Assembly: GCF_003437535.1 (NCBI RefSeq)
Contig: NZ_QSQT01000003.1
Location: forward strand, 1 to 64,000
Source of the DNA: Phocaeicola plebeius
Lineage (GTDB): Bacteria; Bacteroidota; Bacteroidia; Bacteroidales; Bacteroidaceae
Reading direction: 5' to 3'
Length of the DNA: 64,000 nt
A model generated the notes under the pieces. That model was not told the DNA's origin. It saw only the letters and a program-made list of their open reading frames with translations, and ran no database searches. A program made the position numbers and the translations under genes. Each line of letters begins with the position of its first letter. Positions within the stretch are counted from its first letter, which is position 1. Of the stretch, positions 1,521 to 40,561 are shown one piece after another.

Positions 1521-2693
1521 ATGGTGATAAAAACAATTTTGGATACAGATTTATATAAGTTTACTACTTCATACGCTTATATAAAGTTATTCCCTTATGC
1601 CATTGGAACCTTTACTTTTAAAGATAGGGATGAGACTGAATATACGGAAGGATTTCTGGAAGCCTTGAAAAATGAAATCCATAATCTGGAAATGGTGAAA
1701 CTGACATCGGAAGAGCAGGAATACATGACAACCCATTGTCGTTTTCTGCCCAGTGTGTATTGGGAGTGGCTTTCTTCCTTCCGGTTTGACCCGAATAAAA
1801 TAGAAGTATGGTTGGATGAGCACCATCACTTACAGATGACGGTGACCGATTACCTGTATAAGGTAACTCTTTATGAAGTGCCGCTACTGGCCATTGTTTC
1901 TGAAATAAAAAATCAATTTCTGAATCGCATTCCAGACAAGCAGGCAATATTGGCAAAACTGGCCGAAAAGGTGAACCTGTCGAATGCACACCAAATGCCT
2001 TTCTCCGAGTTTGGTACACGCCGACGTTTCTCTTTTGACGTGCAGAAGCTGGTGGTGGAATATCTGAAGGAACATGCACAGTATTGTACCGGTACATCCA
2101 ACTGTCACCTTGCCATGAAATATGATATGCGCCCTATGGGTACCCATCCTCATGAATGGTTTATGTTTCACGGAGCTCAGTTTGGTTACAAGCACGCCAA
2201 CTATATGGCATTGGAGAACTGGGTAAACGTGTATGATGGTGATTTGGGGACAGCCCTGTCTGATACCTATACATCTGATTCATTCCTCAGCAATTTCAGC
2301 CGGAAGCAGGCAAAGTTGTTTGACGGTGTACGTTGTGATTCCGGCGATGAATACGAATTTATAGAGCGGTTGATAGCCCGGTACAAGGAGTTAGGCATTG
2401 ACCCGACTACCAAAACGATTATCTTCAGTAATGCATTAGATTTCGAGAAGGCACTGAAGATTTATCAGTATTGCCAGGGAAAAATCCGCTGTTCCTTTGG
2501 TATCGGTACCAACTTGACGAACGACACAGGTTATCAGCCATCTAACATTGTGATGAAATTATCACGCTGCAAGATGAGTCAGAGTCAGGAATGGCGTGAA
2601 TGTGTCAAGCTTTCGGACGATATGGGCAAGCATATGGGAAGCATGACAGAGGTAGAAGCCTGTCTGCATGAGCTACGTTTGCTTACAGAATGA
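1521..2693 (+). CDS. pncB: nicotinate phosphoribosyltransferase
   Basis: Makes nicotinate mononucleotide from nicotinate and PRPP with ATP, the entry step of the Preiss-Handler NAD salvage route; cytosolic. The 390-residue length is normal. Visible features are the N-terminal DTDLYKFT segment, FSEFGTRRRFS at about 161-171, the GTHPHEW segment whose His211 is the likely phosphorylated histidine, and LFDGVRCDSGD, which is typical of the C-terminal barrel of this family. It starts 36 bases after the preceding T-tract. No terminator is obvious between its stop and the leu promoter at 2763, so read-through into the leu leader is possible. Confidence 0.94.
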   Translation: MVIKTILDTDLYKFTTSYAYIKLFPYAIGTFTFKDRDETEYTEGFLEALKNEIHNLEMVKLTSEEQEYMTTHCRFLPSVYWEWLSSFRFDPNKIEVWLDEHHHLQMTVTDYLYKVTLYEVPLLAIVSEIKNQFLNRIPDKQAILAKLAEKVNLSNAHQMPFSEFGTRRRFSFDVQKLVVEYLKEHAQYCTGTSNCHLAMKYDMRPMGTHPHEWFMFHGAQFGYKHANYMALENWVNVYDGDLGTALSDTYTSDSFLSNFSRKQAKLFDGVRCDSGDEYEFIERLIARYKELGIDPTTKTIIFSNALDFEKALKIYQYCQGKIRCSFGIGTNLTNDTGYQPSNIVMKLSRCKMSQSQEWRECVKLSDDMGKHMGSMTEVEACLHELRLLTE

Positions 2694-2762
2694 TAGATTT
2701 ATAGTCTGTTGCTTTTGTTTGTGTGAATTTGTTGTTTAAATAATGAAAAAACTTTCTTTTTA

Positions 2763-2793
2763 TTTTCTTATTTCAAAATATTGTATACCTTTG
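2763..2793 (+). promoter_or_regulatory. promoter of the leucine operon
   Basis: TACCTTTG at 2786-2793 is a perfect -7 box. A TTTT at 2763-2766, separated by exactly 19 bp, is a plausible weak -33 box. Transcription would start near 2798-2800, about 30 bases before the leader-peptide ORF. Confidence 0.75.
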
Positions 2794-2828
2794 CAGCATC
2801 TAAAACGAAACGTATAAAACGAACGATT

Positions 2829-2915
2829 ATGAACAACTTGTTTTTACATATTTTGCTATGCGGTCTGATTAATCTGCTGGAAAGCCCAGTGGGAAGTGAG
2901 TCGTGCGCATACTGA
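2829..2915 (+). CDS. leuL: leucine-rich leader peptide of the leu operon
   Basis: This 28-codon ORF begins ATG AAC AAC TTG and ends at TGA, directly followed by an in-frame TAG. Seven of codons 4-17 are leucine (positions 4, 6, 9, 10, 13, 16, 17) and two are isoleucine. Such enrichment just before leuA is the hallmark of an attenuation leader peptide. The N-terminal half reads MNNLFLHILLCGLINLL; the C-terminal half has no leucine and overlaps the antiterminator arm. The peptide is probably not functional itself: the act of translating it is the sensor. The symbol follows the enterobacterial leuL by analogy only; no sequence homology is claimed. Confidence 0.8.
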   Translation: MNNLFLHILLCGLINLLESPVGSESCAY

Positions 2916-2974
2916 TAGTAAAAATGAAATGATATCAAGCCTTTCTCACTTCCTTGTGCGAAAGGCTTTTTTTT
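2891..2974 (+). promoter_or_regulatory. leu operon attenuator (antiterminator and terminator)
   Basis: The terminator hairpin has a 9-bp stem (2937-2945 with 2960-2968), a mismatch, 3 more pairs (2947-2949 with 2956-2958) and a TTCCTT loop, then a run of T to 2974. Inside the leader ORF, GGAAGTGAG (2892-2900) is the exact complement of CTCACTTCC (2945-2953), which spans the upper 5' arm and the loop. Pairing of these two would disrupt the terminator. A ribosome stalled at the last Leu codons (2874-2879) leaves 2892-2900 free. One that reaches the stop at 2913 would cover part of it and let the terminator form. The sequence shows the pairings; the mechanism is inferred from classical amino-acid attenuation. 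Confidence 0.8.
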
Positions 2975-3003
2975 GAGATAACAAGAAATAAAAAGATAAT
3001 ATT

Positions 3004-4500
3004 ATGAGTGACAGATTATTTATTTTTGATACGACTCTTCGCGATGGGGAGCAGGTACCGGGATGCCAGTTGAACACAGTGGAAAAGATTCAGGTGGCAA
3101 AGCAGCTGGAAGCATTAGGTGTGGATGTAATTGAAGCCGGTTTTCCGATTTCAAGTCCGGGAGATTTTAATTCTGTAATTGAAATTTCTAAAGCGGTGAC
3201 TTGGCCGACTATCTGTGCGTTGACTCGTGCTGTGCAGAAAGATATTGATGTAGCGGCAGAAGCCCTGCAATATGCCAAACATAAACGTATTCATACGGGA
3301 ATCGGTACTTCTGATTCGCATATCAAGTATAAATTCAATTCTACCCGTGAAGAAATTATTGAACGTGCAGTAGCTGCCGTGAAATATGCAAGACGTTACG
3401 TAGATGACGTGGAGTTTTACGCAGAAGATGCCGGACGTACGGACAATGAATATCTGGCACGCGTAGTAGAAGCAGTAATTAAGGCTGGAGCTACAGTAGT
3501 GAACATTCCGGATACCACAGGCTATTGTTTGCCTGATGAATATGGTGCAAAAATCAAATACCTGATGGAGCATGTCAACGGAATAGACAAAGCAATTATC
3601 TCTACTCACTGTCATAACGATTTGGGCATGGCTACAGCCAATACCATCAGCGGAGTGTTGAACGGTGCCCGACAGGTGGAAGTAACCATTAACGGTATTG
3701 GTGAACGTGCCGGAAATACCTCGTTGGAAGAAGTGGCCATGATTTTACGTTGTCACCATGACATTCAGATTGATACCAATATCAATACACAGAAAATCTA
3801 TCCTACCAGCCGCATGGTGTCCAGTTTGATGAACATGCCGGTACAGCCTAACAAGGCTATCGTGGGACGTAATGCCTTTGCGCATTCTTCGGGTATCCAT
3901 CAGGACGGTGTGCTGAAAAATGTGCAGACTTACGAAATCATTGACCCGAAGGATGTGGGTATCGATGATAATGCCATTGTGCTGACTGCACGTAGCGGAC
4001 GTGCTGCCTTGAAGCATCGTTTGCATGTGCTGGGAGTGGAAATGACTCAGGAAAAACTGGATAAGGTATATGAGGATTTCTTGAAACTGGCTGACAAGAA
4101 AAAGGATATCACAGACGATGACATCTTGGTATTGGCAGGAGCCGACCGTAATGTGAACCACCATATCAAACTGGAATACCTGCAAGTGACAAGTGGTGTG
4201 GGTGTTCGTTCGGTAGCCAGTCTTGGACTGAATATCAGCGGAGAGCACTTTGAAGCAGCTGCTACAGGTAATGGACCGGTGGATGCCGCTATCAAGGCTG
4301 TGAAACAGATTATCAAACGCCAGATGACTTTGAAAGAGTTCACTATTCAGGCCATCAGCAAGGGTAGTGACGATGTGGGTAAAGTACACATGCAGGTGGA
4401 ATACGACGGCCAGATGTATTATGGCTTTGGCGCAAACACCGACATCATTGCCGCATCAGTAGAAGCATATATCGATTGTATCAATAAATTCAGAAAATAA
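3004..4500 (+). CDS. leuA: 2-isopropylmalate synthase
   Basis: First committed step of leucine synthesis: condenses acetyl-CoA with 2-oxoisovalerate. The 498 residues comprise an N-terminal HMGL-like TIM barrel with DTTLRDGEQ at 9-17, the metal-binding HCHND at about 202-206 and GIGERAGN near 236, followed by a C-terminal domain of the LeuA allosteric (leucine-binding) type from about residue 360. It is the first structural gene after the attenuator and is followed 19 bases later by leuC. Regulation is probably double: transcription attenuation by the leader and feedback inhibition by leucine at the C-terminal domain (family knowledge). Confidence 0.95.
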
Positions 4501-4519: not shown

Positions 4520-5917
4520 ATGGCTAATACATTATTCGACAAAATATGGGATGCACACATCGTGCAGAAGGTGGAAGACGGACCTACCCAGTTGTATATC
4601 GACCGTCTGTACTGTCATGAGGTAACCAGTCCGCAGGCTTTTGCCGGGATGCGTGCCCGTGGATTGAAGTGCTTCCGTCCGGAACGTATCTATTGTATGC
4701 CGGACCACAATACACCGACTCATGACCAGGACAAACCTATCGAAGATCCTGTATCTAAGGCACAGGTAGATGCGCTGGCAAAGAATGCAGCCGATTTCGG
4801 ACTGACGCATTTCGGAATGATGAACAAGAAAAACGGTATTATCCATGTGGTTGGTCCGGAACGAGGACTGACACTGCCGGGCATGACGATTGTGTGTGGT
4901 GACTCACATACTTCTACTCATGGAGCGATGGGAGCAGTGGCTTTTGGTATCGGTACCAGTGAAGTGGAAATGGTAATGGCTTCACAGTGTATCCTTCAGG
5001 CACGTCCCAAGACCATGCGTATCACGATTGACGGTAAGCTGGGCAAAGGTGTTACGGCAAAGGACGTTGCATTGTACATGATGTCAAAAATGACCACAAG
5101 CGGTGCGACCGGATATTTTGTGGAATATGCAGGTGAAGCTATTCGCAGTCTGACCATGGAAGGACGTCTCACATTGTGCAACTTGTCGATTGAAATGGGA
5201 GCCCGTGGAGGTATGATTGCTCCGGATGAAGTGACCTTTGAATACATCAAAGGACGTGAATATGCTCCTAAGGGTGAAGAATGGGATAAGGCCCTGGCTT
5301 ACTGGAAAACATTGAAGAGCGACGACGATGCCGTATTTGACAAGGAAGTACGTTATGACGCTGCAGATATTCAGCCGATGATTACTTACGGAACCAATCC
5401 GGGAATGGGCATGGCTGTTACATCGGATATTCCTACCACGGAAGGCATGAGTGAAGTAGAAAAAGGCTCTTTCGAAAAATCCATGCAATACATGGGATTC
5501 CAGCCGGGTGAAAGTCTGCTGGGTAAAAAAGTAGATTATGTGTTCTTGGGAGCTTGTACCAACGGACGTATTGAAGACTTCCGTGCGTTTGCTTCTATCG
5601 TGAAGGGAAGAAAGAAAGCTGATAATATCACTGCATGGCTGGTTCCGGGTTCTTGGATGGTAGACGAACAGATTCGTCAGGAAGGACTTGACAAAGTGTT
5701 GGAGGAAGCTGGATTTGAAATCCGTCAGCCGGGATGTTCTGCTTGTCTGGCCATGAACGACGACAAGATTCCTGCCGGAAAATATTCAGTATCTACAAGT
5801 AATAGAAACTTTGAAGGACGCCAGGGACCGGGTTCACGTACCTTGCTGGCAAGTCCGTTGACTGCGGCTGCCGCTGCCGTAACCGGTGTGATAACAGATC
5901 CAAGAACGTTAATGTAA
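4520..5917 (+). CDS. leuC: 3-isopropylmalate dehydratase, large subunit
   Basis: With LeuD it isomerises 2-isopropylmalate to 3-isopropylmalate; the same enzyme class can act on citramalate. It belongs to the aconitase superfamily with a 4Fe-4S cluster. The three cluster cysteines are visible: one in [10 protein letters not shown] (about residue 346) and two in [12 protein letters not shown] (about 406 and 409). [10 protein letters not shown] near residue 131 and the [10 protein letters not shown] substrate-binding segment near 430 are also present. Length 465 is standard for the bacterial LeuC type. Three bases separate its stop from the leuD start, so the subunits are likely translated together. 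Confidence 0.95.
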
Positions 5918-5920
5918 AAA

Positions 5921-6526
5921 ATGAGTGTCATGAAACAGAAATTCAATATCATAACAAGTACTTGTATCCCTTTGCCATTGGAAAATGTGGATACTGACCA
6001 GATTATCCCGGCACGCTTCCTGAAAGCAACTACACGCGATGAAAAATTCTTTGGAGACAATTTGTTTCGCGACTGGCGTTATCATCCGGATGGTTCGCTG
6101 AACAAGGATTTTGTGCTGAACAATCCTAAATACAGCGGACAGATTTTAGTGGCCGGAAAGAACTTCGGTAGCGGTTCCAGCCGTGAACACGCTGCGTGGG
6201 CTATTGCCGGATATGGTTTTCGGGTGGTAGTTTCAAGCTTCTTTGCCGATATTCATAAGAACAATGAACTGAATAACTTTGTTTTGCCGGTGGTGGTAAG
6301 CGAAGAGTTCTTGAAAGAGCTGTTTGCTTCGATTGAAGCAGACCCTCAGACGGAAGTAGAGGTGAACTTACCGGCACAGACTATTACCAACAAAGCAACC
6401 GGAAAGTCTGAAACATTTGAAATCAATGTTTATAAGAAGCATTGTTTGATGAACGGACTGGATGACATTGACTTCTTGGTAGAGAACAAAGATAAGATAG
6501 AGGCTTTTGAAAAGGCACGCAACTGA
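5921..6526 (+). CDS. leuD: 3-isopropylmalate dehydratase, small subunit
   Basis: Small swivel-domain subunit that completes the active site of LeuCD. The signature [13 protein letters not shown] is at about residues 79-91 and the length of 201 is typical. ATG at 5921 is used; a second ATG three codons later (5930) is an alternative. It sits directly behind leuC and 12 bases before the second LeuA-like gene. Confidence 0.95.
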
Positions 6527-6538
6527 CCGTAAAAAAGA

Positions 6539-8077
6539 GTGATTATGAATAATCATCCGAGAATAGAGATAATGGACACTACGTTACGCGACGGAGAACA
6601 GACCAGTGGCGTATCGTTTGTCCCTCACGAGAAGTTGATGATAGCCCGTTTGTTGCTGGAGGATTTAAAGGTAGACCGAATCGAAGTTGCTTCAGCCCGC
6701 GTGTCGGATGGTGAATTCAATGCAGTAAAAATGATTTGTGACTGGGCTGCACGCAGAGGTTTACTGCAGCGGGTAGAAGTCCTGGGATTCGTTGACGGAA
6801 AGATGTCGGTCGACTGGATTCATGATGCGGGAGGACAGGTCATCAACTTGCTTTCGAAAGGCTCTGAAAAGCATTGCCGCTATCAGTTGAAGAAGACTTT
6901 GGAGGAACATCTGGCTGACATACGGAATACGGTAGACTATGCGCACGAAAGAGGGCTTGAAGTCAATTTGTATCTGGAAGACTGGAGTAATGGTATTAAG
7001 GATTCACCGGACTATGTATTCGGATTGGTAGATGGTTTGCGCGACATCGGTATCCGTCGTTTCATGCTTCCTGATACCTTGGGAATTCTCAATCCCTTGC
7101 AGGTCATCGAATTCATGCGTAAAATGAAAAAGCGTTATCCAGACCTTCATTTTGATTTTCATGCGCACAATGACTATGATTTGGCTGTAAGTAACGTATT
7201 AGCAGCTGTATTGAGTGGGGTGAAAGGATTGCATACTACCATTAACGGGTTGGGAGAACGGGCCGGTAATGCCCCTCTGGCCAGTGTGCAGGCTATCTTG
7301 AAAGACCATTTTCATGCCATTACGCGCATCGATGAAAGTCGCTTGAATGATGTGAGTCGTGTAGTGGAATCTTATTCCGGTGTGACGATTCCGGCCAACA
7401 AGCCCATTGTGGGAGAGAGTGTGTTTACACAGGTGGCTGGCGTACATGCCGATGGAGACAATAAGAATAAACTCTACTTCAACGACCTGCTTCCGGAGCG
7501 TTTCGGACGTGTGCGTGAATATGCCTTAGGAAAAAATTCCGGGAAAGCCAACATCCGTAAGAATCTGGAGAGTATGGGCCTGGAACTGGATGAAGAATCC
7601 ATGCGCAAAGTCACCGAACGAATCATTGAACTGGGCGATCGTAAAGAACTGGTCACTCCCGAGGATTTGCCGTATATCATCAGTGACGTGTTGAAGCACG
7701 ATGGCATACAGAATAAGGTGAAATTGCTTAGTTACTTTGTAACCCTCGCCAAAGGATTGAAGCCGATGGCCACGCTTAGCATTGAGATTAACGGGAAAAC
7801 CTATCAGGAAAGTTCCAGCGGCGACGGACAGTACGATGCTTTTGTACGTGCGTTGCGCAAGATATATAAAGGTACATTAGGAAGAAAATTCCCGATGTTA
7901 CTGAACTATGCTGTGACTATTCCTCCTGGCGGACGTACGGATGCCTTTGTGCAGACTGTTATCACCTGGAATTATGAGGATAAGGAGTTCCGTACAAGAG
8001 GATTTGATGCCGACCAGACAGAAGCAGCCATCAAGGCGACAATTAAAATGTTGAACATGATAGAAGATTTAAATTAA
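6539..8077 (+). CDS. LeuA/CimA-type synthase, probable (R)-citramalate synthase
   Basis: A second HMGL-like acyl-CoA condensing enzyme in the operon. The 512 residues carry [10 protein letters not shown] at 12-21, HAHND near 214 for metal binding and GLGERAGN near 236, plus a C-terminal LeuA-type regulatory domain. The barrel diverges strongly from the upstream LeuA: it has YLEDWSNG and FMLPDTLG segments that I associate with the CimA-related branch. CimA condenses pyruvate and acetyl-CoA to citramalate, which LeuCD and LeuB can turn into 2-oxobutyrate for isoleucine. Its place between leuD and leuB suits that role. A second isopropylmalate synthase is the main alternative; the family is certain, the substrate is not. 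Confidence 0.75.
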   Translation: MIMNNHPRIEIMDTTLRDGEQTSGVSFVPHEKLMIARLLLEDLKVDRIEVASARVSDGEFNAVKMICDWAARRGLLQRVEVLGFVDGKMSVDWIHDAGGQVINLLSKGSEKHCRYQLKKTLEEHLADIRNTVDYAHERGLEVNLYLEDWSNGIKDSPDYVFGLVDGLRDIGIRRFMLPDTLGILNPLQVIEFMRKMKKRYPDLHFDFHAHNDYDLAVSNVLAAVLSGVKGLHTTINGLGERAGNAPLASVQAILKDHFHAITRIDESRLNDVSRVVESYSGVTIPANKPIVGESVFTQVAGVHADGDNKNKLYFNDLLPERFGRVREYALGKNSGKANIRKNLESMGLELDEESMRKVTERIIELGDRKELVTPEDLPYIISDVLKHDGIQNKVKLLSYFVTLAKGLKPMATLSIEINGKTYQESSSGDGQYDAFVRALRKIYKGTLGRKFPMLLNYAVTIPPGGRTDAFVQTVITWNYEDKEFRTRGFDADQTEAAIKATIKMLNMIEDLN

Positions 8078-8089
8078 AAGCATACAATT

Positions 8090-9151
8090 ATGGATTTTAA
8101 AATAGCAGTATTAGCCGGTGACGGAATCGGACCGGAAATCTCCGTTCAGGGAGTAGATGTAATGACAGCCGTTTGTGAGAAGTTTGGTCACAAGGTGGAT
8201 TATAAATATGCACTTTGTGGAGCACATGCTATCGATGAAGTAGGTGATCCGTTCCCTGAAGAAACTTATCAGATTTGTAAGGATGCCGATGCTGTGTTGT
8301 TCTCAGCAGTAGGTGACCCGAAATTTGACAATGACCCGACCGCAAAGGTACGTCCGGAACAGGGATTGCTGGCTATGCGTAAAAAACTGGGACTTTTTGC
8401 CAATATTCGTCCGGTACAGACCTTCAAGTGTCTGGTGCACAAATCTCCGTTGAAAGCCGAACTGGTAGACGGTGCAGATTTTCTCTGTATCCGCGAACTG
8501 ACAGGCGGTATGTATTTCGGAGAAAAATACCAGGATAATGACAAGGCATACGATACAAACATGTATACTCGTCCGGAAATTGAACGAATCTTGAAGGTTG
8601 GCTTTGAATATGCGATGAAACGTCGTAAACACCTGACTGTGGTAGATAAAGCTAATGTATTGGCTTCTTCTCGTTTGTGGCGTCAGATTGCACAGGAGAT
8701 GGCTCCTCAGTATCCGGAAGTGACAACTGACTACATGTTTGTGGATAATGCAGCCATGAAGATGATTCAGGAACCCAAGTTCTTTGATGTAATGGTTACA
8801 GAAAATACGTTCGGCGATATTTTGACAGACGAAGGTTCAGTAATCAGCGGCTCAATGGGCTTGTTGCCTTCGGCTTCTACAGGCGAGAGCACACCGGTGT
8901 TTGAACCGATTCACGGTTCATGGCCACAGGCAAAGGGACTGAATATTGCCAATCCGTTGGCACAGATTCTTTCCGTAGCCATGTTGTTTGAATATTTCGA
9001 TTGTAAGGAGGAAGGTGCACTTATCCGTCGTGTAGTAGATGCTTCTTTGGATGCCAATGTACGCACTCCGGAAATTCAGGTAGAAGGCGGAGCAAAATAT
9101 GGAACCAAAGAAGTTGGTGCTTGGATTGTAGACTATATTAAGAAGGCGTAA
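8090..9151 (+). CDS. leuB: 3-isopropylmalate dehydrogenase
   Basis: NAD-dependent oxidative decarboxylation of 3-isopropylmalate to 2-oxoisocaproate; could also serve 3-methylmalate in a citramalate route. It is in the isocitrate/isopropylmalate dehydrogenase family. The GDGIGPEI start motif is at 10-17 and the signature [15 protein letters not shown] follows near residue 235. The length of 353 is normal. It is the last gene of the operon, 12 bases behind the LeuA/CimA-like gene and ahead of a bidirectional terminator. Confidence 0.95.
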
Positions 9152-40214: not shown

Positions 40215-40287
40215 AGCGGAAGACGGGACTCAAACCCGCGACCCTCAGCTTGGAAGGCTAATGCTCTATCAACTGAGCTACTTCCGC
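40215..40287 (-). tRNA. tRNA-Gly (anticodon TCC), copy 1
   Basis: A 73-base cloverleaf on the minus strand: acceptor GCGGAAG pairs with CTTCCGC, and the anticodon loop CTTCCAA has TCC. No encoded CCA. It is last in a Tyr-Gly-Tyr-Gly transcript. Confidence 0.95.
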
Positions 40288-40296
40288 AATTTTTAG

Positions 40297-40379
40297 TGGG
40301 CAAAGATGGATTCGAACCACCGAAGGCGTAAGCCAGCAGATTTACAGTCTGCCCCATTTGGCCACTCTGGTACTTGCCC
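40297..40379 (-). tRNA. tRNA-Tyr (anticodon GTA), copy 1
   Basis: 83 bases with the long variable arm of type II tRNAs. The anticodon loop CTGTAAA has GTA. The acceptor GGGCAAG pairs with TTTGCCC, leaving one G-U pair. Confidence 0.95.
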
Positions 40380-40396
40380 AACAATATTTTAAAAAG

Positions 40397-40469
40397 AGCG
40401 GAAGACGGGGCTCAAACCCGCGACCCTCAGCTTGGAAGGCTAATGCTCTATCAACTGAGCTACTTCCGC
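40397..40469 (-). tRNA. tRNA-Gly (anticodon TCC), copy 2
   Basis: Same as copy 1 except for one T-loop base. It is second in transcription order. Confidence 0.95.
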
Positions 40470-40478
40470 AATTTTTAG

Positions 40479-40561
40479 TGGGCAAAGATGGATTCGAACC
40501 ACCGAAGGCGTAAGCCAGCAGATTTACAGTCTGCCCCATTTGGCCACTCTGGTATTTGCCC
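40479..40561 (-). tRNA. tRNA-Tyr (anticodon GTA), copy 2
   Basis: Same as copy 1 except that its acceptor starts GGGCAAA and pairs fully with TTTGCCC. It is first in the transcript. Confidence 0.95.

Follow-up and report, generated by a model that had tools for sequence, protein, structure and literature searches.

A candidate ribosome-mediated attenuator with leucine and isoleucine codons upstream of the leuA operon in Bacteroidales

The leucine locus of Phocaeicola plebeius

The window analysed here, a stretch of 64,000 nucleotides from Phocaeicola plebeius, carries on its plus strand a leucine operon in the order leuA-leuC-leuD-cimA-like-leuB, with intergenic gaps of 3-19 bp. The genes leuA (2-isopropylmalate synthase, 3004..4500; NCBIfam NF002086 and TIGR00973), leuC (4520..5917; TIGR00170), leuD (5921..6526; TIGR00171) and leuB (3-isopropylmalate dehydrogenase, 8090..9151; TIGR00169) all score above the cut-offs of the families named, while the nearest family of the fourth gene (6539..8077) is the Leptospira (R)-citramalate synthase CimA, at a score under the family cut-off (NF042433, 646 bits against 950). 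The closest named LeuA, with 99% identity, is that of P. coprocola (L031). A cluster of four tRNA genes elsewhere in the window (40215-40561, minus strand) is ordinary.

Between the upstream neighbour, a nicotinate phosphoribosyltransferase gene (1521-2693, stop at 2693), and leuA lie, in this order, a promoter-type box, a 28-codon ORF, and a terminator made up of a hairpin and a T tract. The ORF runs on the plus strand from an ATG at 2829 to a TGA at 2913-2915 (2829..2915), is conserved in relatives and encodes the peptide MNNLFLHILLCGLINLLESPVGSESCAY. It is dominated by Leu, with seven Leu (codons 4, 6, 9, 10, 13, 16 and 17) and two Ile, and its core is the run of control codons L-I-N-L-L (2865..2879, plus strand; last Leu codon 2877-2879), the commonest run in relatives being I-I-I-L-L. 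An ATG ORF with at least 7 Leu per 14 codons arose in 2 of 2000 dinucleotide shuffles of the window's upstream region. The initial annotation, made from the letters of the window, had described a 28-codon ORF with seven Leu among codons 4-17; this is borne out base by base, and its coordinates proved correct when the sequence was read again. In genome G001 the leader ORF and the terminator are identical to those of the window.

Upstream of the ORF, the probable -7 promoter box TACCTTTG (2786..2793, plus strand) is a sequence match to TAnnTTTG, the Bacteroides-type -7 consensus, and the leader transcript would start near 2800. Such a box lies at most 70 nt upstream of the ATG in 99 of the 105 leaders introduced below, window included, against 5.6% in mononucleotide shuffles. 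A generic sigma-70 scan of 2600-3100 returned three sigma-70-like sites where 1.8 were expected and was uninformative.

Downstream of the ORF, an intrinsic terminator (2937..2974, plus strand) consists of a lower stem (2937-2945/2960-2968), an upper stem (2947-2949/2956-2958) and a T tract (2967-2974). Folding of this segment gives -17.1 kcal/mol with a z of -4.8, equalled by none of 200 shuffles, and the fold of the whole leader has a z of -2.45 (equalled by 3 of 200). A generic terminator scan of this region (2600-3100) reported no terminator, probably because that scan admits loops of 3-8 nt, whereas here 14 nt sit above a long lower stem.

The putative antiterminator 5' arm GGAAGTGAG (2892..2900, plus strand), which a Watson-Crick match, covariation and folding all point to, lies inside the leader ORF, and its 3' partner CTCACTTCC (2945..2953, plus strand) comprises the last base of the terminator's lower 5' arm, its upper stem and its loop. 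The two match in 9 of 9 Watson-Crick pairs, and the predicted helix has 10 pairs once G2891-U2954 is included; both this complementarity and the Rho-independent terminator had been noted beforehand, and both are confirmed in the sequence. The pairing with the terminator 5' side reaches -18.6 kcal/mol, which was matched by 19 of 5000 shuffles of the region after the control codons. From the last control codon to the arm there are 11 nt, counted to G2891, or 12, counted to G2892.

Conservation of the leader across Bacteroidales

Conservation was assessed in 170 leuA upstream regions, made up of the window, 90 regions taken from 393 drawn genomes of the order and 79 named loci (that is, the window and L001-L170 minus L082, which begins within leuA; L095 has only 202 upstream bases). 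A leader ORF, defined by at least 8 Leu/Ile/Val in 14 codons, is present in 115 of these regions, against 4.6% of 1700 shuffles, and absent by this rule from 55; since the rule skips degenerate leaders (L013, L014, L022 and L124 are leader-like but score below 8), the figure of 115 is probably low. Under a more permissive rule, by which a few hairpins are weak, a hairpin with a T tract follows 122 of 126 ORFs scoring at least 7. From these 122, the 105 leaders kept for further analysis are non-identical, score at least 8 and have a hairpin of -9 kcal/mol or better that starts after the ORF end. Wrong or weak picks are L057 (where an upstream ORF was taken in place of the real leader, MNSSIHILLCGIISLLAKPVGSECRA), L128 (-6.1 kcal/mol) and L170 (-9.9). 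All 105 leaders enter the gap statistic below. The position table and the calculation of folding states are limited to the 74 whose gap is 9-14 nt, and alignment A1 is a Bacteroidaceae-type sample of 30 leaders hand-chosen from 54, some of them extended to an upstream ATG.

The distance from the last Leu or Ile codon to the first paired base of the arm is 10-13 nt in 70 of the 105 leaders, against 10% in shuffles. A ribosome whose A site holds the last control codon covers roughly the 10-13 nt that follow, so that, when stalled there, it would just free the arm. The placement of the last Leu codons before the arm, proposed for the window, where the gap is 11 nt, recurs in these relatives. Among Leu codons, the rare CTA accounts for 37% in leaders and for 2% in leuA genes, an enrichment of about 18-fold. 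Ile mostly stands two to four codons ahead of the last control codon (59, 56 and 41 of 74 leaders, respectively). In Prevotella-type leaders such as L071, L097 and L108, L-L is replaced by R-L, with a CGA Arg codon before the last Leu, and Arg occurs in the control run of 13 of the 74.

A covariance model of the leader, applied to 151 genomes of the family, matches 75 of them, some through a sister leader alone. Outside the order, 40 leuA upstream regions from the class and phylum, which are part of the places listed, held no leader scoring at least 9. The covariance model gave a single weak candidate there, L215 (G728, 23.9 bits), which may represent the same system in a sister order. Its leader reads MIIKYTISLNRLPLTKTV, and GAGAAGGG faces CCCTTTCTC, before leuA.

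Compensatory pairing between leader and terminator

Across the 105 leaders, the region after the control codons pairs with the 5' side of its native terminator at -16.76 kcal/mol on average, against -14.11 (sd 0.20) for permuted partners, a value reached in none of 5000 permutations, and likewise in none of 5000 for a deduplicated set (n=82). The corresponding control counts were 1799 and 200 of 5000 for two other regions of matching length, and 4999 for the far part of the tested region itself. These permutations and the Fisher test given further on ignore relatedness, for which the deduplicated run is a partial remedy.

In the 30 Bacteroidaceae-type leaders of alignment A1, all 269 cells of the helix 2892-2900/2945-2953 are paired, against 66.7% at most when the register is slid; three of its pairs are altered on both sides, in one cell each. 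Paired changes of arm and terminator are seen in L016 (GGAAGCG/CGCTTCC), in L136 and L138 (GGAGTGAG/CTCACTCC), in L140 and L141 (GGTAGTGAG/CTTGCTACC) and in L161 (GTGAGAATGG/CCATTCTCAC). The ORF, the position of its control codons and the covarying pairing are kept across many Bacteroidales families, and this comparison supports the attenuator mechanism that had been put forward for the window. A lack of such conservation, which the initial annotation had named as grounds for rejecting it, was not observed.

How far the antiterminator invades the terminator varies. In the Prevotella-type leaders L069, L102, L107 and L108, the arm extends into the lower 5' arm of the terminator (CCTTT). In the window, the perfect helix covers the upper stem and loop and reaches a single pair into the lower stem, a weak extension adding 2-3 pairs to it, and a pseudoknot with the remaining 8 lower-stem pairs is conceivable; this shallow reach into the lower stem is the least satisfying detail of the attenuator model. 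Two ORF layouts are found among the relatives, in which the ORF either passes through the arm, as in the window, or has its stop codon within it, and in both a terminating ribosome would cover the arm wholly or partly.

Folding states and a probable kinetic decision

A tentative protector hairpin 1:2 (2873..2893, plus strand; 2873-2880 with 2886-2893; -9.1 kcal/mol) overlaps both the control codons and the antiterminator arm. Its covariation score was reached in none of 500 shuffles, yet 72.1% of cells in alignment A1 are paired in its register against 74.6% at a slide of +1. In the RNAalifold consensus of the 30 leaders, conserved structure is limited to the terminator, the protector region and a small helix. 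A long-range hairpin in the minimum-energy fold of the window (from about 2838 to 2930) is absent from that consensus.

When folding is calculated with a stalled ribosome and before the terminator 3' arm has been made, the antiterminator has a mean probability of 0.97 and exceeds 0.5 in 74 of 74 leaders. The nascent antiterminator without a ribosome has a mean of 0.38 in the 74 leaders, against 0.93 in the window and 0.00 in the E. coli controls, a value which suggests that the protector hairpin of the window is weak. Once the terminator is complete, equilibrium folding of the stalled state favours the terminator in 63 of 74 leaders (in the window, terminator 0.89 and antiterminator 0.03). The terminator wins in the same calculation for E. 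coli leuL and trpL, which are proven attenuators, so that this result points to antitermination under kinetic control and does not refute it. Equilibrium folding was dropped as a criterion of antitermination, as both E. coli leaders fail it too.

Proposed mechanism

Taken together, the comparison of sequences makes it very likely that the leuA-leuC-leuD-cimA-leuB operon is controlled by a classical ribosome-mediated transcription attenuator. The anatomy, conservation, spacing and compensatory pairing are the established part of this model. Beyond these we infer a promoter, a ribosome stall, an in vivo response and a dual Leu/Ile input, which would combine as follows. RNA polymerase would start near 2800 and a ribosome would translate the leader. 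With charged tRNA-Leu scarce (or tRNA-Ile in relatives with IIILL), the ribosome would stall on the last control codons (2865-2879), opening the protector hairpin, with its front edge halted just before 2891-2892. The arm 2891-2900 would then pair with 2945-2954 as the latter emerges, ahead of synthesis of the terminator 3' arm, which would pre-empt the terminator and allow the operon to be transcribed. With Leu and Ile plentiful, the ribosome would reach the stop codon at 2913 and cover part of the arm, the terminator (2937-2968) would form and transcription would end at about 2974.

Sister leaders upstream of other amino acid operons

The weaker second hits of the covariance model point beyond leuA. 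Twenty such places were fetched, of which 18 precede an ilvD-like gene (3 of the 18 checked against NCBIfam, the remainder read by eye) and two trpB. The ilvD leaders (L181-L195, L197, L198 and L200, all Bacteroidaceae) encode Ile/Val/Leu peptides followed by a terminator and, in those read closely, the arm pairs with the terminator 5' arm; in L186, for example, the leader is MNLHTSINLAVLHIIRVVVVSSRV and GTGAGAAAGG stands opposite CCTTTCTCAC.

Upstream of hisG (L241-L252), again in Bacteroidaceae, a leader-like ORF with at least 3 His per eight codons is found in 9 of 12 regions, a count that has no shuffled control and that includes the hisG leader of G001 (L242, MILNTVHHRHHHYLTVHTVG). L247 provides another example (MRTVITHHHHHHPGE), and the arm of a His leader, e.g. 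CGGTGGGC, stands opposite GCTTACCG in the terminator. L251, with 3 His in 8 codons at -412, reaches the threshold and was not counted as a leader. Among Bacteroidaceae trpB upstream regions whose gene lies above the family cut-off (L253-L263 and L265), 11 of 12 have a leader-like ORF with at least 2 Trp (WW/WWW). Two of them match the Bacteroid-trp family of Rfam (L255 at 90.7 bits, L253 at 52.4 bits) and L262 falls below its cut-off, while none of 12 leu, ilv and his leaders compared with Rfam (the window, L015, L043, L108, L140, L161, L186, L188, L197, L243, L247 and L250) matched any family at gathering score. Among the sister and leu leaders tested, only trp leaders thus match Rfam.

Leucine alone, or leucine and isoleucine

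The initial annotation had described the leader as leucine-responsive. An average leader of the 105 contains 4.8 Leu, 4.4 Ile and 0.9 Val, with at least 3 Ile in 94 leaders and at least 3 Val in 7, and, judged from its codons, the leader of most relatives reads Leu and Ile (IIILL), a point absent from that annotation. The leuCDB genes can work in leucine synthesis and, where a citramalate synthase is present, in that of isoleucine. In this operon the predicted cimA-like gene and leuCDB probably feed isoleucine synthesis as well, which the coding of the leader for both Leu and Ile would fit. Of the 90 genomes of the order draw, 57 have a leader or leader-like ORF and 33 have none; cimA adjoins leuA in 53 of the former and in 20 of the latter (Fisher p 0.0004, ignoring relatedness and with some non-adjacent cases, such as G001, being contig breaks).

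A different reading is that the attenuator responds to leucine only, the Ile codons of relatives being incidental and the final Leu pair alone being what matters. In its favour, the control run ends in Leu in 70 of the 74 leaders whose gap measures 9-14 nt, the window and L034 have no Ile run (LINLL), and ATT, the codon used for 80% of the Ile residues in leaders, makes up 36% in leuA genes, where it does not count as rare. Moreover, in G303 and G366 cimA lies on another contig than leuA, yet their short leaders retain 3 and 2 Ile, respectively. These facts have to be set against the share of Ile among leader residues (19%, against 4% for Val), the presence of at least 3 Ile in 46 of the 47 strict leaders with an adjacent cimA, and the leaders of genus g61, which have Leu runs and no Ile run where cimA is separate or not found. 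In that genus, G258 has 0 Ile, and about 600 kb separate its cimA from leuA along a single contig; G165 has 0 Ile with cimA and leuA on separate contigs, both short, and G059 has 2 Ile and no cimA match at E 1e-120 or better. These three leaders come from one clade and so amount to one event at most, and G258 alone offers firm separation. The link between the Ile codons of the leader and the location of cimA is therefore suggestive, and we consider the leucine-only reading rather improbable, though deserving of attention. The 16-codon leaders of G366 and G303 (L273 and L274, the latter MERIHTILLCLLISLR) are much shorter than the others and have a different arm (AAGGGG/CCCCTT), possibly representing an independently rebuilt attenuator.

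We lean, with some hesitation, towards the view that Bacteroidales run Leu and Ile synthesis as a unit, that leader codons follow the genes of the operon and that the same architecture, re-coded, controls ilvD and hisG. Tandem Ile and Leu codons would then share one leader because the two pathways have leuCDB and the cimA-like gene in common.

Alternatives to attenuation

Three further explanations dispense with attenuation by the ribosome. The first supposes that the ORF makes a functional small hydrophobic membrane (or toxin-like) peptide and that the RNA pairing is secondary. The IIILL core is indeed hydrophobic and transmembrane-like; the scarcity of Val noted above, the enrichment of CTA and the fixed distance of the control codons from an RNA arm nevertheless speak against such a peptide. 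So do the residues GSE/GSG, which follow from the RNA arm, the stop codon that other lineages have inside this arm, and the runs of His and Trp that take the place of IIILL in hisG and trpB leaders, and we regard this explanation as very unlikely. An equally poor prospect is a terminator controlled by a ligand or a protein (riboswitch, T-box-like element or repressor), with the ORF as a bystander. Such a system would in part resemble what is seen, a structured leader and a terminator ahead of a biosynthetic operon, but Rfam matches in the whole window at gathering score were tRNAs only, a search of 2700-3010 at E up to 10 gave only weak hits (the best being Phe_leader, 22.5 bits against a cut-off of 55, E 0.13), the 30-leader consensus holds no larger conserved fold, and the codon evidence is against it too. 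Least plausible of all is an ordinary, non-regulatory terminator of the nicotinate phosphoribosyltransferase gene, since the hairpin, although no other one with a T tract was noticed between the stop at 2693 and leuA, starts 243 nt past that gene, beyond the promoter-like box, and such a hairpin comes after 122 of the 126 leader ORFs counted above.

Relation to known attenuators

Ribosome-mediated attenuation is a textbook mechanism, and the Bacteroidales leu attenuator very probably works like E. coli leuL (NP_414617), homology to which is not claimed. Both have a 28-codon leader with a Leu run, an antiterminator right after the control codons and a terminator before leuA, and both behave in the same way in the folding control. 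E. coli leuL also uses rare Leu codons. It differs in having four consecutive Leu codons and no Ile run, and by the same measure its spacing, like that of trpL, is 14 nt against 11 in the window. Furthermore, the Bacteroidales antiterminator pairs with the loop and upper arm of the terminator, and the operon includes a cimA-like gene, unlike the E. coli system. The leader model (R1) found no match up to E 1 in the E. coli leuL comparison (L267). In the E. coli ilvGMEDA and thr leaders, one peptide reads the codons of several pathway amino acids; such multi-amino-acid reading is shared with the Bacteroidales leu leaders, whereas the codon sets differ.

Leader-peptide attenuators have also been described or proposed within the phylum. 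Vitreschak et al. (2004) reportedly listed candidate attenuators, possibly leu among them, in some Bacteroidetes/Chlorobi. Rfam RF01692, Bacteroid-trp (Weinberg et al. 2010, PMC2864571), is a trp leader; it is likewise a Bacteroidetes peptide-leader RNA before a biosynthetic operon, and differs in its Trp codons and trp genes, the leu leader being unmatched by it. In a transcriptome study of Flavobacterium psychrophilum, ‘strong clues’ of leader-peptide attenuation before amino acid operons were reported (PMC9723704). The phylum, the type of operon and the structured 5' regions are shared with the case described here; operon-level detail is absent from the sections of that report considered, and our own 40 outside-order leuA upstream regions gave the one weak candidate. 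A map of B. thetaiotaomicron contains sORFs reminiscent of leader peptides, and leuA goes unmentioned in its main text (PMC7366714). The suggestion that such attenuators are rarely annotated in the phylum holds for leu, but is weakened by the presence of Bacteroid-trp in Rfam and by the F. psychrophilum proposal. No description of a leu attenuator in Bacteroidales was found in the literature searched, most subscription journals being outside its scope. The mechanism is hence a known one, of which an order-wide leu member in Bacteroidales was not found in the sources searched.

Implications for Bacteroidales

Beyond the initial annotation, the comparison of sequences points to a conserved coding for both Leu and Ile, to sister leaders before other operons and to an association of the leu leader with cimA. 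Bacteroidales are dominant bacteria of the gut, and little of how they regulate amino acid synthesis has been annotated. An attenuator that reads Leu and Ile across the order predicts how cells would respond to branched-chain amino acids, and accounts for an unannotated small ORF. If our preferred view is true, Ile codons would be kept for as long as cimA stays in the operon and lost on its departure, and Bacteroidales would use a family of codon-swapped attenuators missing from Rfam. The leu attenuator would also be a test bed for transcription-translation coupling in Bacteroides, and the leu leaders may give a natural experiment on the evolution of leader codons with operon content.
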